DNA from: a bacterium
GTDB taxonomy: Bacteria > Patescibacteriota > Minisyncoccia > UBA11713 > 2-01-FULL-45-33
Direction of reading: 5' to 3'
Assembly (NCBI GenBank): GCA_030648495.1
Contig: JAUSHV010000037.1
Span: 1 to 33,412, forward strand
Length of the DNA: 33,412 bases
Shown: one piece after another, positions 9,128-23,883 of the stretch
Layout: each line of letters opens with the position of its first letter
Position numbering within the stretch: position 1 is the first letter of the stretch
Made by a program: the position numbers and the translations under genes
The notes under the pieces: model-generated
The model's input: the letters and a program-made list of their open reading frames with translations, nothing else
The model's database searches: none
Told to the model about the DNA's origin: nothing

Positions 9128-9817
9128 ATGCAACTAAAAAACAAAGAAAAATTTAAAGCAATAAAACTCCGCAAAGACGGTTTATCATATAGCGAAATTT
9201 TAGAACAAGTTAAGGTGGCCCGCTCTACTTTGTCGCTTTGGCTCCGTAGCGTCGCTTTATCAAAGCCTCAAAGCCAAAGATTAACGGAGAAAAAACTGAA
9301 ATCTATGATGCGCGGGGCTCAAACCCGCCGGAAACAGCGCATTGATAGCTCCAATGCAATTTATCAAAAATCCGGTGGCGAGATAGGCAATATTTCAAGC
9401 CGAGAACTGCTTTTGATAGGTTCGGCCCTATATTGGGCGGAGGGTTCAAAACAAAAAGAGCACAATGTAAGCCAAGGAATTATTTTTGGTAATTCTGACC
9501 CAAATATGGTAAGGTTATTTTTAGTGTTTGCTAAAAATGTATTGGGCGTACAGGACAATGCTATTAAGTTCGAGCTATATATCCACCGTAACGGCAATGT
9601 GCCCCGGGCCGTCAAATATTGGGCGGGGGAGTTGAGGGAGCCTATAAAGAAATTTTCAACGGTATATTTCAAAAATGGCAATGCAAACACAAAAAGAAAA
9701 AACATTTCCGAAAATTATCACGGCTTGATTCGTGTGAGGATTCTTAAAAGCACTTCGCAAAACAGGCGCATTACTGGATGGATTCAAGGAATTGTAAAAC
9801 ATTGCGGGATCGTCTAG
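9128..9817 (+). CDS. HTH-domain protein with LAGLIDADG-like motif (putative homing-endonuclease-like)
   Basis: N-terminal resolvase-like HTH (KAIKLRKDGLSYSEILEQVKVARSTLSLWLR); ELLLIGSALYWAEGSK resembles a LAGLIDADG helix; final codons TGC GGG ATC GTC TAG lie inside tRNA-Gln. Confidence 0.65.
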   Translation: MQLKNKEKFKAIKLRKDGLSYSEILEQVKVARSTLSLWLRSVALSKPQSQRLTEKKLKSMMRGAQTRRKQRIDSSNAIYQKSGGEIGNISSRELLLIGSALYWAEGSKQKEHNVSQGIIFGNSDPNMVRLFLVFAKNVLGVQDNAIKFELYIHRNGNVPRAVKYWAGELREPIKKFSTVYFKNGNANTKRKNISENYHGLIRVRILKSTSQNRRITGWIQGIVKHCGIV

Positions 9818-9876
9818 CGGTAGGACACCAGGTTTTGGACCTGGGTACCTAGGTTCGAATCCTAGTCCCGCAGCCA
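9803..9876 (+). tRNA. tRNA-Gln (anticodon TTG)
   Basis: Acceptor TGCGGGA/TCCCGCA, D arm GTCTAGCGGTAGGAC, anticodon arm CCAGG-TTTTGGA-CCTGG, T arm CTAGGTTCGAATCCTAG, encoded GCCA 3' end. Confidence 0.95.
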
Positions 9877-9956
9877 CCTTGAGATGGGTTCGGACTCCGA
9901 GAGGAGCGTCGTTTAAATTACATTTATTACCGGATTACCAGTTATAATTAATTTCA

Positions 9957-10547
9957 ATGGGAAACGAACATTTATGGGAAGAAATACGTCCTACCGCGCG
10001 TGGCATGAGTGAGCATTTTGAGGACTTTGGTTTAAGCATTGATGATTTGAGGGGCAAAAAAATTCTTGATATTGGTTCGGGCCTGAATCAGCTTGCAAAT
10101 GAACTAAAAGAAGACAACCTCGACATTACTTCGCTTGATCCATTGTATGCGCTGTCAGCAGAGGAGCGGGAAGCGCTGTATGAAGATTACGAGGATGGGT
10201 CTGAGGAATTACAAAAACTCCTTCATCAACTTAAATCGGAAAATCGATCGTCTAAACTTGTTGCCGGGCGTAGCGACGCACTCCCATTTGCCAATGATTC
10301 GTTTGACCTGATTATCTCGCATTACGGCTCTCCATTTTATGCAGAAGATGCCGAAAAAGTTACACAATTTTTTTCGGAACTCAATCGAGTTTTGAGAAGC
10401 GGCGGAGAAGCTAGAATTTATCCGACATGGTTACGAAATTCAGATATCAAAAAATCTGCCGCTGTAAAAAAATGTCTTAAGGATCTCGAAGAAGGTGGAT
10501 TTCACATAGAGCAAATTGGGAGTTCCTGGATGTTAAAAAAAAGTTAG
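9957..10547 (+). CDS. Class I SAM-dependent methyltransferase-like protein
   Basis: GKKILDIGSGLNQLANEL motif I; DALPFANDSFDLIISHYG; FFSELNRVLRSGGEARIY. Confidence 0.8.
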   Translation: MGNEHLWEEIRPTARGMSEHFEDFGLSIDDLRGKKILDIGSGLNQLANELKEDNLDITSLDPLYALSAEEREALYEDYEDGSEELQKLLHQLKSENRSSKLVAGRSDALPFANDSFDLIISHYGSPFYAEDAEKVTQFFSELNRVLRSGGEARIYPTWLRNSDIKKSAAVKKCLKDLEEGGFHIEQIGSSWMLKKS

Positions 10548-10730
10548 GACAATTTTTGGGAAGATACCTAGTGTCCGAGGAGCGTTGATTTGATATGATT
10601 TAAAAATCACCGGAAAGCCTTACGGGGTCTCAATTTTTAAAAATTCGAGCTCGAGAAAGTTAGCCAAATGAACTTTTCATTATTAAAACACCCCGGGGCG
10701 CGGATGCCGGAAACATGATAGTATTAAAAT

Positions 10731-10937
10731 ATGTCATTACTTAATTTAGCGTTCTACATTCTCTGGCTGGTTTTGTTCGTCTGGGCATTATTGGACATTA
10801 TAGGGGCCAATAAGAGCATGGGATGGAAGGTAATATGGGGGTTGGTATGCCTTGCGTTCCCGGTGGCGGGCACGATACTTTACTACCTCGTTGCCAGGCA
10901 GAAAGACATGCATCTTCCGCAGGACTTTCAGAAATAG
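10731..10937 (+). CDS. PLDc_N-type small membrane protein
   Basis: 68 aa, two TM; ALLDIIGANKSMGWKVIWGLVCLAFPVAGTILYYLVAR matches the PLDc_N pattern. Confidence 0.75.
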   Translation: MSLLNLAFYILWLVLFVWALLDIIGANKSMGWKVIWGLVCLAFPVAGTILYYLVARQKDMHLPQDFQK

Positions 10938-10966
10938 AAACGAAGCAAACATGTTAAAATAAAAGC

Positions 10967-11419
10967 ATGCAGAATCGGATTATTTTAATTGTAGTAGGCT
11001 TAGCTCTGATTTTTGGAGTCGGTTTTTTTGTTTATTCTACCAAACAGCCTGTATTTATACCCCCGGAAGAAATAATTGACCAGACGCCATCTCCGACACC
11101 GACTCCGTCGGTCGTCGTAGCTACTCCTAAACCGACACCAACCCCAACCCCAACTCCGACATTTATTTCGACACCAACGCCGTCGGGCATAACCCTTTCC
11201 CAGATCGCATTGCATAATTCGCGTTCAAGCTGTTGGTCCGCCATAAACGGCAATGTCTATGATTTGACCAGCTGGATACCGTACCACCCCGGCGGCGAGA
11301 ACACCATTCTTTCTATTTGCGGTAAAAACGGGTCGGGCGCGTATAATGGTGAACATGGCGGTAGTTCAAAGACTGCAAAGATATTGATAGGTTTTAAAAT
11401 AGGCGTTCTGGTGCAATAG
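10967..11419 (+). CDS. Membrane-anchored cytochrome b5-like heme-binding domain protein with Thr/Pro linker
   Basis: N-terminal TM, TPTPTPTP linker, then ITLSQIALHNSRSSCWSAINGNVYDLTSWIPYHPGGENTILSICGKNGSGAYNGEHGG (HPGG heme-ligand motif and second His). Confidence 0.85.
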   Translation: MQNRIILIVVGLALIFGVGFFVYSTKQPVFIPPEEIIDQTPSPTPTPSVVVATPKPTPTPTPTPTFISTPTPSGITLSQIALHNSRSSCWSAINGNVYDLTSWIPYHPGGENTILSICGKNGSGAYNGEHGGSSKTAKILIGFKIGVLVQ

Positions 11420-11420
11420 T

Positions 11421-11810
11421 ATGACCATAAATATAAAATTTTCAAGATTGGAGTTGGGACAGAATCTGCTTCGTTTGGGCCTTGCGGCAGTGTTTTTGTG
11501 GTTCGGGTTTTCTCAACTTTTCGATAGTCTCAGATGGGTTTCAGTGGTTCCTGATTGGGCCGTTGAACTGTTTCATCTCCCGCCTGCTATCATTGTACTT
11601 GCGAATGGCGCTTTAGAAGTTATTTTGGGAAGTCTCATTGCGACGGATGTTTTAGTGCGTATCCCCGCCATCATTCTTGCCCTGCATTTGATACCTATCG
11701 CGTTGGATTTCGGGATTACCGCAACAGCTATCCGTGATTACGGTTTGGTTATTGCCGCGTTTACTTTGGCACTTATTTATGGGTATCATGAAAATAAACC
11801 CGAATTATAA
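11421..11810 (+). CDS. DoxX-like membrane protein
   Basis: LLRLGLAAVFLWFGFSQLFDSLRWVSVVPDW; four TM; directly downstream of the cyt b5 gene. Confidence 0.65.
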   Translation: MTINIKFSRLELGQNLLRLGLAAVFLWFGFSQLFDSLRWVSVVPDWAVELFHLPPAIIVLANGALEVILGSLIATDVLVRIPAIILALHLIPIALDFGITATAIRDYGLVIAAFTLALIYGYHENKPEL

Positions 11811-11957
11811 TTTACGGCTTAATACAAACATACTCAATTAGAATTACGATACACAAAAAAAGAAGCGCTACTTGTTTTAGCACTCCAGATTGCCACCGCC
11901 TTATTACCGATATCTGTGGTTTTTGCTCTAAAGTTGTAATCTGACTCTATAATAGAA

Positions 11958-12875
11958 TTACTTATCGTCGACGCCTTGGACAAGGCCAACTATATCGCTA
12001 CGACGAAGTGTTAATTTCAATTCAAGGTTCGACCCATATTGAAACGACTTTTCTGCCTCACTAAAAGAAATTTTATTTAGCATATCATCAAGTTTCCTTG
12101 CCGCCTCAACGAAATCTTTAAAGGACGTAAATTCCTTTTCGCGAAAAGACAAAATTACGGTAAAAATCTTTTTTTCTTGCTCTGTCAACTCCTCTACCGC
12201 CTTTTCTGATATATATTTAACTTGTATAAAAAAAGCTTCACTTAACGCTATTCGAGGTATAGCGTTTACTCTCAATGCTTCTTTTATTTGTGCCATCATT
12301 CCTTTTTCGACAGCCTCGGTAGTACACCCAAGCTGCTTGGCTAATTTGAAATATTCTGCTTCACTATCCTGTACCAGCTCAGCGCTTTCTAAGGAATCAA
12401 TGGTTGTTAAGCAAAGTTTATATATTTCTTCAGCCGATCTCTCCCAGTTATAGCTCTCTCGAAGTTCTTTAAATAATTTATGCGCTGCCGTTAAATCCTT
12501 TTGCCCGCGTTCTTTTGCGTAGAGATCAGGTTCGGTCATTACATATGGCACACTATGTCCTATTAAACTACTGAAACAATATTCTCCCATAAATCGGACC
12601 CTATCATCTCCTTGTTTGGGTAGGGCGCTTCCGGCTTCATAAGATGAAGTTATTGTTTTTGCTGTTTCAAGTAATCTTGCGGCCACCATAGAAACAGAAC
12701 AATCCGATACTTCGCTGGCCAATTCGTTAAGCCCCAACTTTCTCAGTTCGCTGGACACGGATTGCATATTAGTCATGTTGTGACTCGCAAAATATCCTTT
12801 TGCAAATTCAGGCAGCGAGCTTGCTTTCTCCGGTTCAATTTTTTCTTCGGAATTATTCAATTCATTTTCTTTCAT
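11958..12875 (-). CDS. Hypothetical soluble protein
   Basis: Long ORF; more plausible start is MKENELNNSEE at 12875 rather than 12911. Confidence 0.7.
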   Translation of the reverse strand: MKENELNNSEEKIEPEKASSLPEFAKGYFASHNMTNMQSVSSELRKLGLNELASEVSDCSVSMVAARLLETAKTITSSYEAGSALPKQGDDRVRFMGEYCFSSLIGHSVPYVMTEPDLYAKERGQKDLTAAHKLFKELRESYNWERSAEEIYKLCLTTIDSLESAELVQDSEAEYFKLAKQLGCTTEAVEKGMMAQIKEALRVNAIPRIALSEAFFIQVKYISEKAVEELTEQEKKIFTVILSFREKEFTSFKDFVEAARKLDDMLNKISFSEAEKSFQYGSNLELKLTLRRSDIVGLVQGVDDK

Positions 12876-12929
12876 AAAATCTATCGTATCATTTTTTGAT
12901 ATTTTATACAATTATGCTAAAATAATATC

Positions 12930-13475
12930 ATGAAAAAAATAATTCCGTTAGCAATAATTGTTTTGGTAATCATCGGATCAGGCGTAACGTGGAAGCTCAC
13001 AAAAAAAGAAGCGCCCGCGACGGTTGTAACGAATTTTGAAGAATGCGTAAAAACGGGGAACGCAGTAATGGAAAGCTACCCGCGCCAATGCAGGTATGGA
13101 GACAAAACATTCGTTGAGGATATAGGCAATACAATTGAAAAGACCGATTTAATCCACCTTGAATCTCCGCGACCAAACCAAATCGTCAAGAGCCCGCTTA
13201 CTATTAGAGGAGAGGCGCGGGGTAATTGGTTTTTTGAAGCTAGCTTTCCGGTGGCGCTTACAAACTGGGACGGGCTGATTATTGCCCAAGGAATTGCAAC
13301 GGCGAAAAGTGAATGGATGACAAACGATTTCGTTCCATTTGAAGCAGTTCTCACTTTTAAGTCCGATAAAAACGTGTATAGCAACAGAGGAACTCTCATA
13401 TTGCGCAAAGACAATCCGTCGGGTCTTCCCAAGCACGACGATGCCCTTGAGATTCCGGTATTAATTTCATTGTGA
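12930..13475 (+). CDS. Gmad2 immunoglobulin-like domain protein, membrane anchored
   Basis: N-terminal TM; IHLESPRPNQIVKSPLTIRGEARGNWFFEASFPVALTNWDG...; Gmad2 (PF10648)-like. Confidence 0.8.
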   Translation: MKKIIPLAIIVLVIIGSGVTWKLTKKEAPATVVTNFEECVKTGNAVMESYPRQCRYGDKTFVEDIGNTIEKTDLIHLESPRPNQIVKSPLTIRGEARGNWFFEASFPVALTNWDGLIIAQGIATAKSEWMTNDFVPFEAVLTFKSDKNVYSNRGTLILRKDNPSGLPKHDDALEIPVLISL

Positions 13476-13503
13476 GCATAGAAACGAAAAGAAATAAAAT
13501 TGT

Positions 13504-14754
13504 ATGCAAAGCGAACCACAATGGGATGTTGTAGTCATCGGCGGGGGTCCTGCGGGGATGATAGCGGCGGGGCGCGCGGCTCTGCGGGGGCGGCGCGTTT
13601 TATTGCTTGAAAAAAACCCTACTCTTGGGAAGAAGCTTTTAATCACGGGCGGCGGGAGATGCAATGTTACGAATAATAAACCCGATGTCCGCACAATGCT
13701 CGCAAAATATAAAAAAAGCGATAAATTTCTTTTTTCCGCGTTCGCGCAATTTGGCGTCCGAGAAACGCTCAATTTTTTTCATGAACATGGACTGGAAACA
13801 AAAGAAGAGGCAGAGGGGAGAGTGTTTCCGGTTTCAAATAAGGCAAAATCAGTGTGTGATGTGCTTCTGCAATATATAAAAAAAAACGGCGTAAATGTGC
13901 GAACCCGCGCCGAGGTTGTGGGGATTGTATACGATAAGCCGGCGGAGCAGATAGTTATAACGCTTGCCGATAAATCCAAAGTGCGTGCGCGGTCGTGCGT
14001 TGTTGCTAGCGGTGGAACATCGCGTCCGGAGACCGGCTCAACCGGTGAAGGATTTGTATGGTTGAAATCGCTTGGACACGCGATATCCCAAAATGATATG
14101 GCGCTCGTGCCCATCGCACTCAAAGATGCATGGGTGAAAAAAGTTGCCGGAGTAACGCTTAACGGTATCAAACTCACGTCGTTTAAAAATGGCGTAAAGC
14201 AAAAAGTATATAAAGGCAAGCTGCTCTTCACGCATATCGGTATTAGCGGGCCAACAGTCCTTAATATGAGCAGAGATGTCGGCGAACTATTGCAAGACGA
14301 AGAAGAGATTACGATTCTACTCGATCTTTTTCCGGTTTTAGACAACGACGCACTGCGGGGAAAAATTCAAACACTTCTAACCGAGCAAAGCAATAAAAAA
14401 ATAAAAAATTCTCTTTCCCCATTCATTTCTCCCGCTCTAGTCAATTCTTTACTGATGCTCGCCAATATTGACGGCGAAACGCCGAATCACAGTGTGCGGT
14501 CGGGAGAACGCAAGACACTTGTTGCTCTGCTGAAAGCTATCCCTTTGCATGTTGCGGGACTCCTCGGAAAAGACAAAGCAATAGTATCCTCGGGAGGCGT
14601 TGCTCTCGCCCAAGTAAATTTTAAAACAATGCAGTCGCGCATCGTGCCACGGCTCTATTTGGCGGGTGACATGTTAAACATCGACCGGCCTTCAGGCGGA
14701 TACAGCCTACAATTATGCTGGACAACCGGCTACGTTGCCGGGAATAACTGCTAA
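13504..14754 (+). CDS. HI0933/YhiN-family FAD-dependent oxidoreductase
   Basis: DVVVIGGGPAGMIAAGRAALRGRRVLLLEKNPTLGKKLLITGGGRCNVTN; LFTHIGISGPTVLNMSR; GDMLNIDRPSGGYSLQLCWTTGYVAG. Confidence 0.93.
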   Translation: MQSEPQWDVVVIGGGPAGMIAAGRAALRGRRVLLLEKNPTLGKKLLITGGGRCNVTNNKPDVRTMLAKYKKSDKFLFSAFAQFGVRETLNFFHEHGLETKEEAEGRVFPVSNKAKSVCDVLLQYIKKNGVNVRTRAEVVGIVYDKPAEQIVITLADKSKVRARSCVVASGGTSRPETGSTGEGFVWLKSLGHAISQNDMALVPIALKDAWVKKVAGVTLNGIKLTSFKNGVKQKVYKGKLLFTHIGISGPTVLNMSRDVGELLQDEEEITILLDLFPVLDNDALRGKIQTLLTEQSNKKIKNSLSPFISPALVNSLLMLANIDGETPNHSVRSGERKTLVALLKAIPLHVAGLLGKDKAIVSSGGVALAQVNFKTMQSRIVPRLYLAGDMLNIDRPSGGYSLQLCWTTGYVAGNNC

Positions 14755-14777
14755 AAAACTTATCCACAGGCGGGGTA

Positions 14778-14807
14778 TTGCATGGTGAACGCTTGTTCAC
14801 CTATAAT
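14778..14807 (+). promoter_or_regulatory. Promoter TTGCAT-N18-TATAAT with SOS-type operator GGTGAACGCTTGTTCACC filling the spacer
   Basis: -35 14778-14783, perfect 7-bp inverted repeat with 4-nt centre at 14784-14801, -10 14802-14807; core GAAC-N4-GTTC matches the Bacillus-type LexA/DinR box. Confidence 0.85.
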
Positions 14808-14813
14808 TAATTT

Positions 14814-15017
14814 ATGACCAAATATCAAACTTTTAAAACGATTCGCGAAGAGATTGAAAGGCTGAACCACGAGATAGATCTCAAGATAATCCTAGGCCGG
14901 CCATATATGGTGGAGTCTAGGCGGCACAAAATGCTTTTAGCGAGGTTTGAGAGGCTTGCTCCAGGGCGAGCATGGTTCAAACGCTCCATGAACATAATGG
15001 CCTCGTTAGTTTTATAA
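14814..15017 (+). CDS. Small hypothetical protein, first gene of the lexA operon
   Basis: 67 aa ORF starting 6 nt after the -10; stop 2 nt before the lexA ATG. Confidence 0.65.
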   Translation: MTKYQTFKTIREEIERLNHEIDLKIILGRPYMVESRRHKMLLARFERLAPGRAWFKRSMNIMASLVL

Positions 15018-15019
15018 TT

Positions 15020-15589
15020 ATGTTTTCCTCATATAAACAAAAAATTATTTTGTTTTATAAATCGCGTAAGCGCATGCCCACATACGCCGAGATAATGAAG
15101 CTTGTCGGTTTTAAGTCAAAAAATGCCGCATATAAACTAGTCAATAAATTAATTGAGGAGGGCGCTCTGTCCAAAGATCCAAGCGGCCATTTGATACCCA
15201 ACCGTCTTCAAGATGAATTGCCGCTTTTAGGTTTAGTCGAAGCCGGGTTCCCGTCTTTGGCCGAAGAACAAATTTTGGATACTTTTAATTTTGACGACTA
15301 TCTTATTAAAAACAAGGAATCTACTTATATACTTAAAGTTAAAGGCGACTCTATGATAGATGCGGGGATACATGAAGGCGACTTAGTAATTGCTGAGAAG
15401 GGCCGTGAAGCCAGAGTCGGAGATATTGTCATAGCGGAAGTAGACGGAGGGTGGACAATGAAATATTTCAAGAAAATGGGAAGTCTTGTGTATCTTGAGC
15501 CGGCGAATAAAGAATACAAGCCGATATTCGCAAAGCGCGAGCTCAACATCGCCGCGGTCGTAAGCGGAGTAATCCGCAAATATAGATAA
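15020..15589 (+). CDS. lexA: LexA-like repressor (S24 autopeptidase)
   Basis: ATG at 15020 (MFSSYKQKIILFYKSRKRMPTYAEIMKLVGFKSKNAAYKLVNKLIEEGALS winged helix), Ala-Gly cleavage site LVEAGFPS, catalytic Ser KGDSMIDAGI, Lys in GGWTMKYFKK. Confidence 0.88.
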   Translation: MFSSYKQKIILFYKSRKRMPTYAEIMKLVGFKSKNAAYKLVNKLIEEGALSKDPSGHLIPNRLQDELPLLGLVEAGFPSLAEEQILDTFNFDDYLIKNKESTYILKVKGDSMIDAGIHEGDLVIAEKGREARVGDIVIAEVDGGWTMKYFKKMGSLVYLEPANKEYKPIFAKRELNIAAVVSGVIRKYR

Positions 15590-15640
15590 TCCACAGAACA
15601 AGATTGCTTGGTATAAATAGATTATGCTATACTGTATTTC

Positions 15641-16234
15641 ATGAACATTATAGATATTAAGTCAAAAAAAGCAGTCATTATTGGTGTAGTAGTCGTCGTT
15701 TTGGGAGTTCTTGTTTTTCTTTATAAGGGTTTATTTATCGCCGCCTTGGTCAACGGCTCGCCCATCAGCCGCTTTGAGGTTTTAGGACAGCTTGAGAAGA
15801 CTTCAGGCAAGAGCGTGCTTGACTCACTTATCACTAAAAAATTGATTGAGGATGAAGCAAAGAAAAAGGGAATATCGGTAAGTACCGACGAAGTGAAAAC
15901 AGAAATCTCGAAAATAGAAGAGCAGGTAAAATCTCAAGGAGGGACTTTAGACGCAGCGCTTGCACAGCAGGGAATGACCCGCGCTGATCTCGAAACGCAA
16001 ATCTTCGTGAATGGCAAGATTCAAAAACTGCTTGCTGATAAATTAAATATTACTGACGACGAGATTGCAAAATATATTACAGACAACAAAGTAGAGATTC
16101 CGAAAGGCCAGGAACAGCAATTTAAAGACAACATCAAGTCTCAGCTCTCCCAGCAAAAATTGAGCGCCGAAGCCCAAACGCTTATTGCTTCGTTGAAAGC
16201 CGCCGCAAAAATAAAATATTTTGTGAGTTACTAG
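15641..16234 (+). CDS. SurA N-terminal domain-like secreted/membrane chaperone (no PPIase domain)
   Basis: TM anchor, then VNGSPISRFEVLGQLEKTSGKSVLDSLITKKLIEDEAKKKGISVSTDEVKTEI. Confidence 0.8.
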   Translation: MNIIDIKSKKAVIIGVVVVVLGVLVFLYKGLFIAALVNGSPISRFEVLGQLEKTSGKSVLDSLITKKLIEDEAKKKGISVSTDEVKTEISKIEEQVKSQGGTLDAALAQQGMTRADLETQIFVNGKIQKLLADKLNITDDEIAKYITDNKVEIPKGQEQQFKDNIKSQLSQQKLSAEAQTLIASLKAAAKIKYFVSY

Positions 16235-16238
16235 GAAT

Positions 16239-17696
16239 ATGTTTGGGGCGATCGACTCTCTTCTCAACCGGGTGACGATGTACCGTTTGGCGCTTTATTA
16301 CCTGTTTTTTTTAGTTCTTTACGCGTCTTTATTTGGATTTTTGGGCGCGTTGCCATATAGAGCACAGGATTTCCTTATTTTGACAGCCATTTTAATGGCT
16401 GTTTCCTGGGGTACAAACAAAGTTCTCGCCCGCATTTTCCACGTGAATGAGAATATTGAATCCTCTTTAATAACCGGGCTTATTTTGGCTTTGATAATAA
16501 ATCCGGACCCGGCGCTTGCCGGATCTTCTTTAGTCTTCTGGTCGCTAGCCGGATTTTTGGCCAGCATTTCTAAATATATTTTTGCGCCTTTTAGAAAACA
16601 TATTTTTAATCCCGCTGCTTTCGCTGTTGCCGCGACTGCCTTTACCATAGGCCAGCCGGCCGGGTGGTGGGTTGGTTCTTTCCCAATTATGCTTCCGCCG
16701 GTATTTTTTGGAGGACTTCTTATAGCAAGAAAGCTCCGTAGGGGAGACTTAGTTTTGAGTTTTCTCGTTTCCTCATTAATATTGCTATTTTGGAAAGGTG
16801 GCTGGACAGTTATTCCGCAAACAATTTACTATGCTCCGTTTTTTTTCTTTGCGTTCATCATGCTCACTGAACCGTCGACAGCACCGCCTAGGCAGGGCAA
16901 GCGCATTGCCTACGGAGCTGTGGTCGGAGTTTTATCAATACTTACCACTTATGAGCTAGCGCTCCTTTGCGGCAATATTTTTTCTTATTTAGTAAGCCCA
17001 AAGCACCGCTTTATTATGAAATTAAAAGAACAAAAAGAAATAGCCTCGAATATTTATGAGTTTTCTTTTGCCCATCAGGAAAAAATATCACATCTTCCCG
17101 GACAATATTTTGAATGGACCCTAAAACACAAAAACTCGGATACTAGAGGAATCCGCCGCTACTTCACTATCGCTTCTTCGCCTACGGAGAACGAGATAAG
17201 GTTGGGTACAAAATTCAACCGGCAAGGAAGCACATTCAAAAAAACTCTGGCAGCAATGCGTCCCGGAGACAAAATTTCCGCCTGCCAGCTTGCGGGAGAT
17301 TTTACGTTGCCGGCGGATAAAAACAAAAAACTAGTCTTCATTGCAGGAGGAATCGGCATTACGCCTTTTCGCAGCATGATTAAATATCTCATCGATATAA
17401 AAGAAAAAAGAGATATTATTTTACTGTATTCAAATAAAACTGAATCAGAGATCGCTTACCGTGAAATTTTTGAGGAAGCGCGCACAAAACTCAGCATAAA
17501 AACAGTTTATATTAACAACGACAAAGACGGGTTTATCAACGATAAAACTATTATGTGGGAAGCGCCTGATTTTAAAGAGAGGCATTTCTATATTTCCGGT
17601 CCGCCATCGATGATAGAAGCTTTTCAGCATACTCTTACCGCAATCGGCGTCCCACGCTCGCAAATAAAAACCGATTTTTTCCCGGGATACGTTTAA
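16239..17696 (+). CDS. Fusion of RnfD/NqrB-like membrane domain with ferredoxin-reductase (FAD/NAD) domain
   Basis: N-terminal multi-TM with RKHIFNPAAFAVAATAF and ILTEPSTAP-like segment (MLTEPSTAPPRQ); C-terminal GIRRYFTIASSPTENEIRLGTKF, GIGITPFRSMIKYL, HFYISGPPSMIEAF. Confidence 0.85.
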   Translation: MFGAIDSLLNRVTMYRLALYYLFFLVLYASLFGFLGALPYRAQDFLILTAILMAVSWGTNKVLARIFHVNENIESSLITGLILALIINPDPALAGSSLVFWSLAGFLASISKYIFAPFRKHIFNPAAFAVAATAFTIGQPAGWWVGSFPIMLPPVFFGGLLIARKLRRGDLVLSFLVSSLILLFWKGGWTVIPQTIYYAPFFFFAFIMLTEPSTAPPRQGKRIAYGAVVGVLSILTTYELALLCGNIFSYLVSPKHRFIMKLKEQKEIASNIYEFSFAHQEKISHLPGQYFEWTLKHKNSDTRGIRRYFTIASSPTENEIRLGTKFNRQGSTFKKTLAAMRPGDKISACQLAGDFTLPADKNKKLVFIAGGIGITPFRSMIKYLIDIKEKRDIILLYSNKTESEIAYREIFEEARTKLSIKTVYINNDKDGFINDKTIMWEAPDFKERHFYISGPPSMIEAFQHTLTAIGVPRSQIKTDFFPGYV

Positions 17697-18949
17697 GCGC
17701 TGTTCTTTTTTTCTCCGGCTTTTTCTGAATAGCCGAGTATTTTATTCCACCTCTCAAAACGATCATAAATAAAAAAATGCCCAGGCGATTTGAAAGGAAC
17801 TTCAAGAGATTTTCCTTTTTGAAAAAACGGGAATGTACCATTTTTTTTATTGTCTTTTTGCCATATTTCCAACAATCTTTTTGGCGTAAAAGTCAAAGGG
17901 TCATAGATGCCGCGCCTGATAAAAGAACGTGTATTTTCTGTATCCATTGGAGAACCTTTAAGTAGAGCAAGCGCTTCGCCCATCGTAGCTTTCAGTTTTA
18001 GTTTTTTTTGCTCATCGTTGTCCGTCGGGATGCCTGTTTCCTTTGAAAGCTTTTCTATAAAAGGCCCGCCGAACTTCATGAGATTCCGCATTGTAGAATC
18101 CAAAAGAATTCTGCTGATAGTTTCCCCAATCATTGCGCCGGCAATCTGTGTGCCTTTCAGCCATTTTGTCACTCCTTGTTTTTTATGCTCGCCGGCCGGG
18201 TTATCTAGAAGACGCTGGGTATTTTTTTGTAATTCTTCAGGTAAATATTTGGAAGTTTTTTCCGCAATAATCGCGCCTTTGGAAACACCTTGTAAAACCA
18301 CGTGGACGTCTTTGCCGTCAGCCGGCTCCTGCCGGCTGATAAATTCAGCATAAAGCTTCGCGTGACCGTCAAGCCCATTTTTTTCAATATTTTCTATCCA
18401 TTTTTCATTGACTGCGCCGCCGAAACCTGTCGGTGCACCAAGAAGGTGGACATTCACTTCAGGTGGAACTTCGCCGCGTTTAATTGGGCCTGCTACACGT
18501 GGCAAAAGCCTGATAAATCGGTCAATAGCTAAATCTTCGACTCCAAAAGCGTTGCCTCCCTCGGGCGGGAAAGCGAAGGCGCCAAAAAGAAAATAATCCT
18601 GGCGTTTAGCATTTGTATTTTCTTCTTTGCCCTCAATCTCTTTTTTTGTTGCCATTTCAGTCTCCGCGACAGCAGAATTTTTTGAGAGCTTATTTATTAG
18701 TTCAGTGGTGATGGTAAGTTTTGTGTGCGAAAAAGCGACTCCAGGCATCGCCTCCGAACGGAAGATGCTAAAATTTTTGATTCCTTGTTCGTCAAATTCA
18801 TCGAGCACCGTTCTTATCGTCTCAATTTTTTCCGGATGTTTTTTTCCGAATTCAGTCAGCAATACCTCATAATTCGGTGTGTGAAGTGTCGGTTTTTTTT
18901 CTTGTGATTCTTGTTGCGGTTCTTGGACCGATGGCTGGTCGAAATTCAT
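17693..18949 (-). CDS. Hypothetical protein, possible alpha/beta-hydrolase-like fold
   Basis: DVHVVLQGVSKGAIIAEK resembles a nucleophile elbow (GxSxG); preferred start MNFDQPS at 18949. Stop codon overlaps the convergent stop at 17694-17696. Confidence 0.6.
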   Translation of the reverse strand: MNFDQPSVQEPQQESQEKKPTLHTPNYEVLLTEFGKKHPEKIETIRTVLDEFDEQGIKNFSIFRSEAMPGVAFSHTKLTITTELINKLSKNSAVAETEMATKKEIEGKEENTNAKRQDYFLFGAFAFPPEGGNAFGVEDLAIDRFIRLLPRVAGPIKRGEVPPEVNVHLLGAPTGFGGAVNEKWIENIEKNGLDGHAKLYAEFISRQEPADGKDVHVVLQGVSKGAIIAEKTSKYLPEELQKNTQRLLDNPAGEHKKQGVTKWLKGTQIAGAMIGETISRILLDSTMRNLMKFGGPFIEKLSKETGIPTDNDEQKKLKLKATMGEALALLKGSPMDTENTRSFIRRGIYDPLTFTPKRLLEIWQKDNKKNGTFPFFQKGKSLEVPFKSPGHFFIYDRFERWNKILGYSEKAGEKKNSA

Positions 18950-18987
18950 GATATTATAATATATCAAAAAGAGTATATAATCAAGTT

Positions 18988-19581
18988 ATGCCGGGATTAA
19001 ATTTGGAAAACTTTACCGCCCTGATTACCGCATACGGGTATTTTGTTATCCTGCCGATTGCGATATTGGAAGGGCCGATTCTTGCCGTACTTTCAGGTTT
19101 CTTGGCCTCCATGGGATATTTAAATCCTGTTATTGTTTTTTTAATATTATTGGCCGGGGACGGGATAGGCGATTTTATTTACTATTTTTTAGGAAGGTGG
19201 GCAAAACACGGCTTGATACACCGTTTGGAAAAATACATCGGAGCAACTGACGAAAAACTGGAGAAATTGAAAAAATATTACCAAAAGCACAATTGGAAAA
19301 TCATCGCTTTTTCCAAAACCCAGCCGTTCGGCGCCGTGTTTTTGACGGCTGCCGGAATGGCTGAGATGCCGTTCAAAAAATATATTTTCTACGCACTTTT
19401 AGGCTCCGCTCCAAAAGTACTTTTATTCGAGGGTATCGGTTATTTTTTCGGTAAAAGCATAGTAAACGCGGGAAAATTTGTAGATTACGCCGGGATCGCG
19501 TCGTTTTTTGTCGCAGTGTTACTTGCTGCCGCGTATTATTTTTATCTGCGCTTTGCTAAAAAACAAATAGAAAATATTTAG
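18988..19581 (+). CDS. DedA / SNARE-associated family membrane protein
   Basis: ILEGPILAVLSGFLASMGYLNPVIVFLILLAGDGIGDFIYYFLGRW; PFGAVFLTAAGMAEMPFKKYI. Confidence 0.85.
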   Translation: MPGLNLENFTALITAYGYFVILPIAILEGPILAVLSGFLASMGYLNPVIVFLILLAGDGIGDFIYYFLGRWAKHGLIHRLEKYIGATDEKLEKLKKYYQKHNWKIIAFSKTQPFGAVFLTAAGMAEMPFKKYIFYALLGSAPKVLLFEGIGYFFGKSIVNAGKFVDYAGIASFFVAVLLAAAYYFYLRFAKKQIENI

Positions 19582-19587
19582 ACCAAT

Positions 19588-20628
19588 ATGAAAAAAATAC
19601 TTATCGCAACAGACGCCTGGAAACCTCAAATAAATGGAGTGGTAACCGTGCTCGATAATCTGATCGTTTTGCTCGAAAAAAAAGGTTTTGCCGTCGCAAT
19701 AATTCATCCGGCGCTGTTTTGGAATATGCCGGTCTTCTGGTTTCCGGACTTAAAGCTGACATTGCTCAACATTAAAACTATCAACGACATTATAAAAAAA
19801 GAAAAGCCGGATTTTGTGCATATTGTCACGGAAGGGCCTATCGGGCTCGCGGTGCGCGGAATTTGTTTGAGAAAAAAAATTAAATTCACAACATCTTATC
19901 ATACAAATTTTCACCAGTTTATTAAAATGCGTATGGGAGAAACTGCCGGAGAACTTTTTGTAGAGCCAACTTATAAATATATGCGTTGGTTCCATAGTAA
20001 GGCGGAGCGGACAATGGTGGGTAGTCAAAGTTTATCGGATGAACTTACTCAAAATAAGTTTAAGAATATCGTCATGTGGCCGCTAGGAGTCGATACGGAG
20101 ATTTTCAGAAAAAATCCGGCAGCCCGGATTCATGAGGAATGGAAGAGGCCGATATTCGTAACCTTAGGCAGAGTTGCCATGGAAAAAAGCCCGGAGGAAT
20201 TTCTTAAACTTAATCTTCCCGGCACCAAACTAGTAATCGGCGACGGGCCGCTGCGAAAAACGCTTGAAGCCCAATATCCTCACGCGGTGTTTGTCGGTTT
20301 TAAAAAAAAGGATGAGCTTGTAGACCTTTTGTCTATTTCCGACTGTTTCGTATTTCCATCACGGACGGAAACATTGGGTCTTGTGGCTTTGGAAGCTATG
20401 AGTTGCGGCGTCCCTGTCGCCGCGCACGATGTAATGGGTCCGAAAGATATAATTACAAATGGAGTAGACGGTTATCTGGACGAAGACTTAGAACGGGCGG
20501 CGAATGATTGTTTAAAACTGGACCGCGCTAAATGCCGGGAAAAAGCGCTTCAATTTACATGGAATGCATCCGCCGAAGCATTTATTCAAAATTTGGTATT
20601 GTCCCGCGAAAGCTTAAATAAAGAATAA
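19588..20628 (+). CDS. Glycosyltransferase family 4/1 (mannosyltransferase-like)
   Basis: MKKILIATDAWKPQINGVVTVLDNL; TSYHTNFHQ; FVFPSRTETLGLVALEAMSCGVPVAAHDVMGPKDII. Confidence 0.92.
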   Translation: MKKILIATDAWKPQINGVVTVLDNLIVLLEKKGFAVAIIHPALFWNMPVFWFPDLKLTLLNIKTINDIIKKEKPDFVHIVTEGPIGLAVRGICLRKKIKFTTSYHTNFHQFIKMRMGETAGELFVEPTYKYMRWFHSKAERTMVGSQSLSDELTQNKFKNIVMWPLGVDTEIFRKNPAARIHEEWKRPIFVTLGRVAMEKSPEEFLKLNLPGTKLVIGDGPLRKTLEAQYPHAVFVGFKKKDELVDLLSISDCFVFPSRTETLGLVALEAMSCGVPVAAHDVMGPKDIITNGVDGYLDEDLERAANDCLKLDRAKCREKALQFTWNASAEAFIQNLVLSRESLNKE

Positions 20629-21314
20629 TTTTGATAAATTATTTCGCGCAGTGACAGAACTTTAAATATTTGATTTACCATACGAAACTCTCCGCCTAGT
20701 CCTTTCCAGAATCCTTCCTTTGCGGATTTTGTGGGATTTGAAACATTTTCCCAGCGGACAACGGCAACTCTCATTTTATTTTTTATAATTAGTTTATTCA
20801 TAAAAGATTCCACTCCATATCCCGGTAATTTACTTATCTCGTCTGCGTGCGGAAGCAAAAGGGAACGTGGCAGAACCCTTTCTCCCGTCAGATAATCAAG
20901 CGCTAAGATCTTTTGAAAAAGGAAATCCGCGCCTATGTATGTATAAATCGATGTGGTATTTTTCCTTAAACTAAATGCAACATCCGCCTGACCGGAAAGT
21001 ACCGGTTCTGCGAGGTCGGAAATGTTTTCGTCTTTTAAACCAACGAGATCGGCATCTATAAACATTAGTAATTCATTTTTGGCGGCGTTTATTCCTGCAG
21101 CCATTGCGTGGCTTTTGCCTTTATTTACCTCCTGGGCGAGTAAGCGGACATTTTTATATTGGCCTACAATTTCCCTGGTTTTGTCCCGAGAGCCGTCATC
21201 AACTACAATAACTTCATCCAATAAGGGATGCCTATCAAGTATTTTTAAAACGTCGCTTATTCTTTGCTCCTCATTATATGCGCAGATAATGCAGGATATC
21301 TTATCCTTTGCCAT
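20586..21314 (-). CDS. Glycosyltransferase family 2
   Basis: ISCIICAYNEEQRISDVLKIL...DEVIVVDDGSRDKTREIV...GKSHAMAAGINAAKNELLMFIDADL. Confidence 0.92.
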   Translation of the reverse strand: MAKDKISCIICAYNEEQRISDVLKILDRHPLLDEVIVVDDGSRDKTREIVGQYKNVRLLAQEVNKGKSHAMAAGINAAKNELLMFIDADLVGLKDENISDLAEPVLSGQADVAFSLRKNTTSIYTYIGADFLFQKILALDYLTGERVLPRSLLLPHADEISKLPGYGVESFMNKLIIKNKMRVAVVRWENVSNPTKSAKEGFWKGLGGEFRMVNQIFKVLSLREIIYQNYSLFKLSRDNTKF

Positions 21315-21343
21315 ATTTTGATTATAATCTAAAATTGATTAAT

Positions 21344-21988
21344 ATGCCCATGAGCGCTTTAAGTAAAAAATATAAGGAGTATTTTTCCCAACGTGAATTC
21401 AGGCTGGAATGCATAAAGGCGGCCCTGTTGCTTATTGTCAGCCTCGTGGTCAATTTCTACGCCGGGCTCTATGCCACGGCGCGTGCATCAAACTCCGTCT
21501 CAGACATTATTCTCTCAAACCTGCCCGTATATAATATTGATGGAACTTTTATTTGGGCTACTTTCTGTTTTTGGACTTTTGTAATTCTTTTATGCCTCAC
21601 CGAACCGAAAAGAATACCTTTTGTTCTTAATTCCATCGCCACTTTTACCATCATCCGTTCGGGCTTCATCAGTCTCACGCATCTCGGGCCTTATCCGACA
21701 CAGACAATAATAGATTCTTATATCCTCTCCTTTTTTGTTTTTGACGCTGATCTTTTTTTCTCCGGTCACACGGGCATGCCCTTCTTATTTGCGCTTATGT
21801 TCTGGGAAGAGCGGGTTTTACGCTACGCGTTCATCGTAATGGCGCTCGCGTTCGGGACAATAGTGCTTTTGGCGCACCTTCATTATTCCATTGATGTGGC
21901 ATCCGCGTTTTTTATCACCTACGCCATTTATCATATTACGGAGGTGCTTTTCAAAAAGAACCAGATTATGTTTGAAAAAGGATTATGA
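21344..21988 (+). CDS. PAP2_C/sphingomyelin-synthase-like membrane phosphatase
   Basis: DLFFSGHTGMPFLFALMFW and AHLHYSIDVASAFFITY (PAP2 catalytic motifs); start MPMSALSKKY at 21344. Confidence 0.8.
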   Translation: MPMSALSKKYKEYFSQREFRLECIKAALLLIVSLVVNFYAGLYATARASNSVSDIILSNLPVYNIDGTFIWATFCFWTFVILLCLTEPKRIPFVLNSIATFTIIRSGFISLTHLGPYPTQTIIDSYILSFFVFDADLFFSGHTGMPFLFALMFWEERVLRYAFIVMALAFGTIVLLAHLHYSIDVASAFFITYAIYHITEVLFKKNQIMFEKGL

Positions 21989-22473
21989 ATCAATATCTCG
22001 GACTTTTCAAAAATCCTCCTTGGGATTTTGCCTTGGTTTTAACACTCATTGCGGTGGCTTTTTTTTGGGGAGCTTCCAAAGGCAAGCGGTCCATCGGGTT
22101 TATCATAATCAATCTTTATATAATGCTGGCTTTGTGGCCGTTCTTTCCCATTGATATCCTGACCGCGGGGCGCACACCGGTTGAAACATGGGCATTCCGT
22201 GCCGGAGCTTTCTTGCTCATTTTAATATTGCTTTTGCTTTTTATGTCGCGGGCTTTTGATTGGGGGGGTAGAGACGGGGTTTGGTGGGAAGTTTTGATAC
22301 TTAGTATTCTGGCGGGCGGTTTTTTTATCTCAATACTGATGAGCCTTGCTCCGCCGGGAGCCATAGAAAAAAATATTTTATTTTTGAATCCTCTTGTTTT
22401 AAATCTTTTCGCCGACGCGCAAATAGTCCGTTGGTGGACGATACTTCCGATTTTGGGTGTATTGTTTGTCTAG
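21985..22473 (+). CDS. Hypothetical membrane protein
   Basis: ATGA overlap with PAP2-like gene; several TM segments. Confidence 0.7.
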   Translation: MNQYLGLFKNPPWDFALVLTLIAVAFFWGASKGKRSIGFIIINLYIMLALWPFFPIDILTAGRTPVETWAFRAGAFLLILILLLLFMSRAFDWGGRDGVWWEVLILSILAGGFFISILMSLAPPGAIEKNILFLNPLVLNLFADAQIVRWWTILPILGVLFV

Positions 22474-22485
22474 TATTATTAAGGC

Positions 22486-22761
22486 TTGATATTTTTTAAA
22501 ACTTCTGATAATCTATGCTTAGATATTTTTTTTGGAGATTCAGTGGATCAAAAAAAATTTGAGAAAAATAAGAAGCTCATGGATAAATATCATGATTTTA
22601 TATTTTCTCTACCCGGTTTGATGTGCGTAGGGTGGGACGACAAAGAAATTACCATCGACATTAAGCCAGAAAATGTTGCATTAGCAGAACAGTTTATCTC
22701 AAATTATATTGAGGGTGTTCCGATAAAAATAATCCCACGAACGAACCCCCCATCATTTTAA
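22486..22761 (+). CDS. Hypothetical small protein (start uncertain)
   Basis: 91-aa ORF ending immediately at a strong terminator; C-terminal KEITIDIKPENVALAEQFISNYIEGVPIKII. Confidence 0.55.
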   Translation: MIFFKTSDNLCLDIFFGDSVDQKKFEKNKKLMDKYHDFIFSLPGLMCVGWDDKEITIDIKPENVALAEQFISNYIEGVPIKIIPRTNPPSF

Positions 22762-22789
22762 GGTATCAGCTTGATACCTTTTTTCTTTT
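22760..22789 (+). terminator. Rho-independent terminator
   Basis: AAGGTATCA-GCT-TGATACCTT perfect 9-bp stem followed by TTTTCTTTT. Confidence 0.9.
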
Positions 22790-22945
22790 GTCCGCCCGGT
22801 TGCCTGCCCGAACGACTGAAGCGTTTAGTCGGGCGGGGAATCACCCCTCGTAGTGCTCTGCTCGGAACCTACACTTCCTGAATGCGGGCGCTCTCGCGCA
22901 CAACCTGCTGGTTGCCCGCGGTTTGATTTCTGTTCGAACAAGACA
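22788..22945. repeat. GC-rich structured intergenic element with tRNA-Lys acceptor-like sequences; candidate repeat or ncRNA
   Basis: Read on the minus strand: GCGGGC-AACC..GGTT..GCCCGC, AGTG..CACT, GGGGTGATTCCCC, and CCGCCCG-ACTAAACGCTTCAGTCGTTCGGGCAGGCAAC-CGGGCGG hairpins; no ORF. Confidence 0.5.
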
Positions 22946-22989
22946 ACTCAAAATAAAAATACCCACCATGGAGTATTTTTATTTTGAGT
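22946..22989. terminator. Long perfect inverted repeat, likely (bidirectional) terminator
   Basis: ACTCAAAATAAAAATAC-CCACCATGGA-GTATTTTTATTTTGAGT, 17-bp perfect stem just downstream of the minus-strand gene ending at 23003. Confidence 0.7.
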
Positions 22990-23002
22990 GTCCGCCCTTA
23001 TT

Positions 23003-23407
23003 TTATTCGGCGCCTTTGCCACTAGTTTCTATGTCTTCTAATGCTTCGAGTGATAATTTATAATAGATAAGTGCGCATTTTTTCTGTCTAAGTCCTTCTT
23101 GCCAATTCAATATAGTAATTTTGTCAGTACCTTTTGTTTGCATTCTTTCTATTTCTCTTTCGGTTTCTTTAACTTCTTCTGATACAAACTCCAACATGCC
23201 AACAAGATTTTTATTAAGCGTCTCTCTTTCGACTCCTGGTACCATTTTCAAAACATCATAAAAAGCATCTCGAATATTAACCTTAAAATCACCGCCCTTC
23301 TCTAATAATTGATCTGGAGTTTCTTCTGGCGGTAACACCTCTGGGTTTATTGCCTTATTTCCGCCAGATGTTTCTGCGGGTAATTGTTTTGGAATTTTTT
23401 CATCCAT
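23003..23407 (-). CDS. Hypothetical protein
   Basis: 134-aa ORF with charged helical composition (MDEKIPKQLPAETSGGNKAINPEVLPPEE...). Confidence 0.65.
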   Translation of the reverse strand: MDEKIPKQLPAETSGGNKAINPEVLPPEETPDQLLEKGGDFKVNIRDAFYDVLKMVPGVERETLNKNLVGMLEFVSEEVKETEREIERMQTKGTDKITILNWQEGLRQKKCALIYYKLSLEALEDIETSGKGAE

Positions 23408-23487
23408 ATATCTATGCTACTAAAAAATTCGAATGTCTACTAGACTCTTAAACTCGAAACTTAGATTTAACTCGATTTTTGAACTAG

Positions 23488-23560
23488 TCCGCCCGGTTGG
23501 AATCGAACCAACGACCGTCTCCTTAAAAGGGAGCTGCTCTACCGACTGAGCTACGGGCGG
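23488..23560 (-). tRNA. tRNA-Lys (anticodon TTT), CCA not encoded
   Basis: CCGCCCGTAGCTCAGTCGGTAGAGCAGCTCCCTTTTAAGGAGACGGTCGTTGGTTCGATTCCAACCGGGCGGA; loop CTTTTAA. Confidence 0.95.
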
Positions 23561-23817
23561 ATATTTTGAATTAAATTTTTAATAAACTCTCTTCCTCTAT
23601 AACTTTTTAATTGCTTTTCTCTTTTCAGTGCCTCTTGTCTGGTTTGATAATCTTCTTTATGTACCAGCTTCCATGGACCCTTATTTTGCCTAGTGAATTG
23701 ACTCAAATGCGTTTCATCTAAGGCGTTGTGCTGTTTTAGTCTAGCTTCTAAATCAGCAGTTTGGCCTATATAGATTTTGCAGTTTGATTTGCTAACTATG
23801 GCATATACCGTAAACAT
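23551..23817 (-). CDS. Stand-alone GIY-YIG domain protein (UPF0213-like)
   Basis: MFTVYAIVSKSNCKIYIGQTADLEARLKQHN...; last codons ATC CGC CCG TAG run into tRNA-Lys. Confidence 0.92.
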   Translation of the reverse strand: MFTVYAIVSKSNCKIYIGQTADLEARLKQHNALDETHLSQFTRQNKGPWKLVHKEDYQTRQEALKREKQLKSYRGREFIKNLIQNIRP

Positions 23818-23843
23818 TTTATTTAATCATTATATCATTGAAA

Positions 23844-23883
23844 CTGCTCTACCTCCGCCAGCTGGCGGATGAGCTACGGGCGG
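23844..23883 (-). pseudogene. tRNA-Lys 5' fragment with 16-bp palindrome in the D-loop
   Basis: Minus strand CCGCCCGTAGCTCA-TCCGCCAGCTGGCGGA-GGTAGAGCAG versus functional CCGCCCGTAGCTCA-GTC-GGTAGAGCAG. Confidence 0.85.

Follow-up and report, generated by a model that had tools for sequence, protein, structure and literature searches.

Mobile DNA classically lands in tRNA genes at their 3′ ends, by way of integrases, and integrative elements with tyrosine recombinases use the tRNA gene as a landing site while preserving a working tRNA. Here, we analyzed a 33,412-nt stretch of DNA (hereafter, the window; contig JAUSHV010000037.1 of GCA_030648495.1) from a draft genome of 824 kb, belonging to the Patescibacteriota of the Candidate Phyla Radiation (CPR). 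Two nuclease-type open reading frames (ORFs) in the window, a LAGLIDADG-like one (ORF1) and a GIY-YIG one, each lie on the 5′ side of a tRNA gene. We consider it probable that they represent two independent kinds of free-standing homing-endonuclease-type genes, each specialized on tRNA genes.

Several described systems come close to these loci. SegB of the T-even phages is a free-standing GIY-YIG homing endonuclease that cuts within tRNA genes, and genes resembling segB are found in association with tRNAs across phages (PMC13096335); the enzyme drives inheritance and amplification of its tRNA region (PMC13096335, PMC2988022). Fungal mitochondrial mORFs (Allomyces atp6; Glomus atp6, atp9, cox2 and nad3) are insertions of a LAGLIDADG or GIY-YIG gene together with a replacement gene part, after which the displaced native part stays in place (PMC3630166). 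The searchable text of Tsurumaki et al (2024, PMC11270868) describes LAGLIDADG and GIY-YIG insertions in CPR rRNA genes, of which the GIY-YIG ones are not in recognizable introns. Finally, mitochondrial repetitive or double hairpin-forming elements are short palindromes and double hairpins found in RNA genes and spacers (PMC2800124).

ARAGORN and Rfam agree that the window holds only two tRNA genes, for tRNA-Gln(UUG) on the plus strand and tRNA-Lys(UUU) on the minus strand (Table 1). An earlier note on this DNA, made from the sequence alone, had pointed to the same geometry at both, with the ORF 5′ of a same-strand tRNA and its TAG stop inside the tRNA. This was confirmed in each case, with the stop of ORF1 falling on nt 13–15 of tRNA-Gln. 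The GIY-YIG label for the minus-strand ORF is firm (Pfam PF01541, E 2.8e-16). This ORF lies outside any intron, as the Rfam scan of the window shows the two tRNAs only, and its protein has two weak staphylococcal phage matches.

We searched PF01541 in 59 Patescibacteria genomes (57 positive) and analyzed 80 loci of up to ~18 kb. A same-strand tRNA starting between −45 and +110 nt from the stop was found for 22/95 distinct small GIY-YIG ORFs, as opposed to 17/814 other ORFs of the same loci (odds ratio 14, Fisher p 3e-13), a contrast that is conservative because the controls were drawn from loci picked for GIY-YIG. The linkage expected by chance is ~0.4% (44 tRNAs per ~0.85 Mb genome), and no downstream tRNA on the opposite strand was seen (0/95). 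Linkage was found for 15 of the 29 distinct GIY-YIG ORFs in the host's own family. For the ORF1 family, 59 of the 79 named loci had the ORF ending at −20 to +15 nt of a tRNA, compared with 1/321 control ORFs. The check proposed in the earlier note thus came out in favor of its expectation that nuclease ORFs are enriched at CPR tRNA 5′ ends.

The two classes part ways in what is left around the ORF. Remnants of the same tRNA were present on at least one side (p ≤ 0.05, scored against the flanks of other loci) at 15/22 GIY-YIG loci, compared with 3/25 ORF1-family loci, which is about the chance level. The GIY-YIG class therefore leaves a displaced native part behind, as mORFs do, and the ORF1 class does not. 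Read as sequence, the GIY-YIG loci open with a 5′ remnant that starts at tRNA nt 1, followed by the ORF and the intact tRNA; several loci also have a 3′ remnant. At L098, L099 and L210 (L numbers denote loci and G numbers genomes), the acceptor stems of the 5′ and 3′ remnants are complementary to each other and differ from the stem of the inner, intact tRNA, which indicates that the ORF and a whole tRNA sit inside a former tRNA gene. The insert of G062 is flanked on both sides by a stretch of ~60 nt (tRNA nt 23–48, with a double hairpin at 36/37), and G060 has this same layout, spread over two contigs. At L122 (G005) and at L006 (source genome), the GIY-YIG ORF is separated from the intact tRNA by one more degenerate tRNA 5′ part, as if these loci had been invaded repeatedly. 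The earlier note did not mention the broken tRNA-Lys 5′ copy in the window, yet the region it described ends on the first base of that copy.

We propose that the GIY-YIG element comprises the ORF together with a complete, intact tRNA, and that it is seated within a resident gene for the same kind of tRNA. The 5′ and 3′ parts of the resident gene would survive as remnants, studded with palindromes that recur across the genome, while the carried tRNA would replace the broken one. The same anatomy could instead be debris, in which a tandem tRNA duplication left one copy to decay and gather palindromes, with the GIY-YIG ORF as a tolerant passenger. Consistent with debris, the palindromes are genome-wide and not bound to the ORF, and tRNA-in-tRNA inserts exist that have no ORF (L249 of G083). 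However, simple tandem duplication would not give 5′ remnants that start at tRNA nt 1, nor an intact tRNA enclosed by both remnants of a single gene. The strict orientation and flush position of the ORFs also make this explanation unlikely, as does the presence of three GIY-YIG ORFs, dissimilar in sequence, at an orthologous tRNA (described below).

The tRNA-Lys locus of the window is syntenic with those of G060 (same genus), G061 and G065, and provides occupied and unoccupied forms: a GIY-YIG ORF is present in the source genome, G060 and G061, and there is no ORF in G065. The three ORFs are dissimilar (36/80, 26/87 and 28/80 identical residues) and occupy three insertion points in one tRNA, which suggests repeated invasion of this locus. 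The sequence after the 3′ remnant in G060 aligns with window positions 22997–22790. This alignment begins with the final 8 nt of tRNA-Lys, GGGCGGAC, so that the window appears to keep a stub of its resident tRNA-Lys beyond the 134-aa ORF (Table 1). In another family, one divergent tRNA-Lys/tRNA-Gln pair occurs in several states. G005 has no insert at this pair (127 nt), and ORF1-family copies are present in G028 (779 nt; broken) and in G179 (846 nt). G176 has a GIY-YIG ORF 3 nt before tRNA-Gln, and G173 has a 5′ remnant. The pair G058/G124 was considered as an ORF1-free empty site and rejected, as ORF1 is present in both.

For ORF1, the label "LAGLIDADG-like" began as a guess from the sequence. 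Pfam recognizes only an N-terminal helix-turn-helix (HTH) in the protein; no LAGLIDADG family matched it in Pfam, NCBIfam or PHROGs, and none of 29 family members had a Pfam LAGLIDADG match. On the other hand, I-DmoI chains are the best structural matches of the C-terminal domain in the AlphaFold2 model (Z 6.6, which is under 8, with the next unrelated matches over the domain at ~4.5; rmsd 2.6 over 86 residues). Position 105, which aligns with the catalytic acid of I-DmoI by an offset taken from the aligned ranges, lies in the motif GSALYWAEGSK and is acidic in 134/134 homologues (E in 131, D in 3).

Homologues of ORF1 were present in 37/145 genomes across the phylum. Within this phylum sample, 56/61 intact homologues lie 5′ of a same-strand tRNA within 120 nt, and 48/61 within 25 nt. 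A wider collection scan was built on a 4-sequence alignment, and the tRNA-Gln clade has 469 candidate loci. Named homologues (38–64% identity; Parcubacteria, Microgenomates, CPR2 and others) were tRNA-linked in 70 of the 79 scorable cases, and all 70 of these, which belong to the window's own clade, are at tRNA-Gln(UUG). Within the family, each clade keeps to a single tRNA isotype: 18 isotype changes were required on the tree built from 52 phylum-sample proteins, which covers 15 isotypes, compared with a minimum of 35 in 200 label shuffles. The GIY-YIG tree showed little loyalty of this kind (23 changes; shuffle mean 26.3, minimum 23). In G072, from the same class as the source genome, there are about nine ORF1-family matches at different isotypes, including Gly, Ile, Arg and Ala. 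At L194 and L183, the tRNA directly 3′ of the ORF1 homologue (Phe and Asn-like) shows an apparent interruption of its anticodon region, perhaps an intron.

A flush position together with a clade-fixed isotype is what would be expected if the ORF1-type protein reads the tRNA gene. In the arrangement we propose, the ORF1 family inserts precisely between the 5′ leader or promoter of a tRNA and its mature 5′ end, so that the tRNA itself is undamaged. Each clade would recognize one isotype (tRNA-Gln(UUG) for the window's), and ORF1 would probably be co-transcribed with the tRNA and then separated from it by RNase P. The suggestion of the earlier note that free-standing endonucleases target tRNA 5′ ends is accordingly a good fit for the LAGLIDADG-like family, while the GIY-YIG ORFs usually lie inside a broken tRNA instead. 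The stop within the tRNA is real, but a dedicated function for it was rejected: among tRNA-linked homologues, stops 0–12 nt before the tRNA (48/126) are nearly as common as stops inside it (58/126), and the pattern is more simply explained by ORF1-type ORFs ending flush with the tRNA.

Alternatively, ORF1 might not be mobile at all, and could be a host DNA-binding regulator of tRNA operons that has a LAGLIDADG-like fold and is inherited with its tRNA. WhiA is a host DNA-binding regulator with such a fold, ORF1 has an N-terminal HTH, the pairing of one clade with one isotype is also expected from vertical inheritance, and upstream synteny is kept in some pairs (L306/L333 and L331/L336). We nonetheless find this improbable given the uniformly acidic catalytic position and the distribution of the gene, which is missing from both congeners and from 8/10 genomes of the host family, has its closest relatives in distant CPR groups, exists in broken copies (G028) and has relatives in tRNA arrays of viral contigs. 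Five viral contigs encode such relatives, and in 5/5 these lie among tRNAs, although one match spans only 37 residues; a tblastn search of ORF1 against 50,697 phage records gave no match. In the IMG/VR contigs L430–L433, the relatives are inside arrays of 4 to 19 tRNAs within 4.5 kb.

The palindrome in the broken tRNA-Lys copy belongs to the family TCCGCCNNNNGGCGGA, for which a reversed-pattern control gave 0 matches in the source genome (copy number in Table 1). Hairpin stems are longer upstream of tRNA-linked GIY-YIG ORFs than upstream of the ORF1 family (p 2e-7) or of unlinked GIY-YIG ORFs (p 2e-5). The insert of L099 ends in TCCCGATT/AATCGGGA. L249 has a tRNA-Gln(CUG) at L249:1500–1572, together with inner and outer inverted repeats, within the T arm of a broken tRNA-Gln; the ends of this ORF-less insert are inverted (CCCCGTTAGATAT/ATATCTAACGGGG). 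The palindromes may either take part in insertion or merely gather in dead tRNA sequence. The insert ends and the longer stems would also suit palindrome-bounded transposons that enter tRNA loops by their hairpin ends; the GIY-YIG protein would then serve as a transposase-like nuclease, and solo hairpins would be the non-autonomous forms. We give this little credence, since the terminal sequence is not consistent, a matching right end is missing at many loci, and inverted repeats around the inner tRNA, which by eye had seemed a general feature, are by count confined to a subset (8/35 vs 17/236 at ≥8, a threshold chosen afterwards; rank test p 0.07).

Returning to two kinds of tRNA-specialized endonuclease genes, a mechanism shared by both, as the earlier note had hypothesized, was rejected, considering that remnants are frequent in one class and at chance level in the other and that isotype loyalty is strong in one and nearly absent in the other. 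Either kind could spread if the endonuclease cuts an unoccupied tRNA gene and recombinational repair copies the occupied allele. Several points count against this interpretation. The intact tRNA beside the ORF would be expected to remain the enzyme's target, and its escape from self-cleavage is unexplained. In the phylum sample, 73/95 small GIY-YIG ORFs have no tRNA linkage. Foldseek against the PDB gave no ORF1 match at E ≤ 0.001, the I-DmoI match having come from a second structural aligner with a modest Z. Homologues of ORF1 in Omnitrophota metagenome-assembled genomes (L299, L302, L345 and L354) have a glmU-like gene directly 3′ of them and no neighboring tRNA; this branch is perhaps domesticated or differently targeted. 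Lastly, the leader alignment between G005 (empty) and G028 (occupied) did not score above the best one among 300 shuffles; the tRNA pair is thus the basis for orthology at this locus, and position the basis for the exact insertion point of ORF1.

The source genome has four element-linked tRNAs (Gln-UUG, Lys-UUU, Ser-GGA and Ala-GGC). No second copy of any of these four anticodons is among the tRNAs found, which would make a disabled copy costly to the host; this is compatible with the addiction strategy raised as an option in the earlier note. It is quite possible, though we hold this more tentatively, that the CPR harbors a tRNA-parasitizing class in which GIY-YIG elements and their ORF-less relatives invade essential single-copy tRNA genes and compensate with a complete tRNA, while separate, isotype-specific HTH-LAGLIDADG nucleases take over the tRNA leader and promoter; a host that lost either kind would lose an essential tRNA with it, so that both would be entrenched in minimal genomes. 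This looks like a widespread and so far undescribed way for selfish DNA to persist where the host cannot lose it. A literature search found no description of these CPR tRNA elements, with most subscription papers outside its reach.

Table 1. Features of the two tRNA-associated loci in the window.
Feature	Position	Strand	Remarks
ORF1, free-standing HTH + LAGLIDADG-like endonuclease gene, 229 aa	9128..9817	+	TAG at 9815–9817, inside tRNA; model pLDDT 92; I-DmoI Z 6.6
tRNA-Gln(UUG), intact, sole tRNA-Gln found in genome	9803..9876	+	15-nt overlap with ORF1
tRNA-Lys 5′ part, broken copy: nt 1–14, palindrome, then GGTAGAGCAG	23844..23883	-	92% match to relative G062; upstream remnant score above other loci
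Palindrome TCCGCCAGCTGGCGGA in D-loop of broken tRNA copy	23854..23869	.	Member of genome-wide repeat, 22 copies
GIY-YIG endonuclease gene, 88 aa	23551..23817	-	TAG = tRNA-Lys nt 8–10
tRNA-Lys(UUU), intact, directly 3′ of GIY-YIG ORF	23487..23560	-	Sole UUU copy in genome
134-aa ORF, no Pfam match, between intact tRNA-Lys and 3′ stub	23003..23407	-	Insert membership uncertain
8-nt stub GGGCGGAC, apparent 3′ end of resident tRNA-Lys	22990..22997	-	Adjoining flank is homologous to the one beyond the 3′ remnant of congener G060

Nuclease genes at the 5′ end or in the interior of tRNA genes span a whole bacterial radiation with minimal genomes, and they account for small nuclease ORFs beside CPR tRNAs that are otherwise passed over. 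In the ORF1 family, tRNA isotype can be read from protein clade like a code, and this provides a natural set of candidate tRNA-gene-specific nucleases. For CPR annotation, caution is warranted, as tRNA pseudogenes and tRNA-derived protein tails can arise from such elements.

Among the described systems, SegB is the precedent, and matches the GIY-YIG ORF of the window in being an intronless GIY-YIG gene on the same strand just 5′ of a tRNA; T4 segB, which is part of a tRNA cluster, ends 5 nt 5′ of tRNA-Arg, and no remnant was found upstream of it. By our reading, the SegB motif RAWTSGAAC resembles the T-loop consensus in complement. However, SegB is a larger protein, encoded by a phage instead of a chromosome, and carries no replacement tRNA inside a split tRNA. 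The CPR rRNA insertions (PMC11270868) have hosts and nuclease families in common with the window's elements, but their target is rRNA, they are mostly group I/II introns, and tRNA genes are not mentioned in the searchable text. The mitochondrial hairpin elements resemble the CPR palindromes in form, the latter being bacterial and concentrated in tRNA remnants beside GIY-YIG ORFs. Elements with tyrosine recombinases differ in using the tRNA 3′ end and an integrase, whereas the ORFs of the window are at the 5′ end or in the interior and encode nucleases only. The mORFs share the replacement logic of the GIY-YIG class, but they occupy mitochondrial protein genes, replace a C-terminus instead of a whole tRNA and have no loyalty of the isotype kind.

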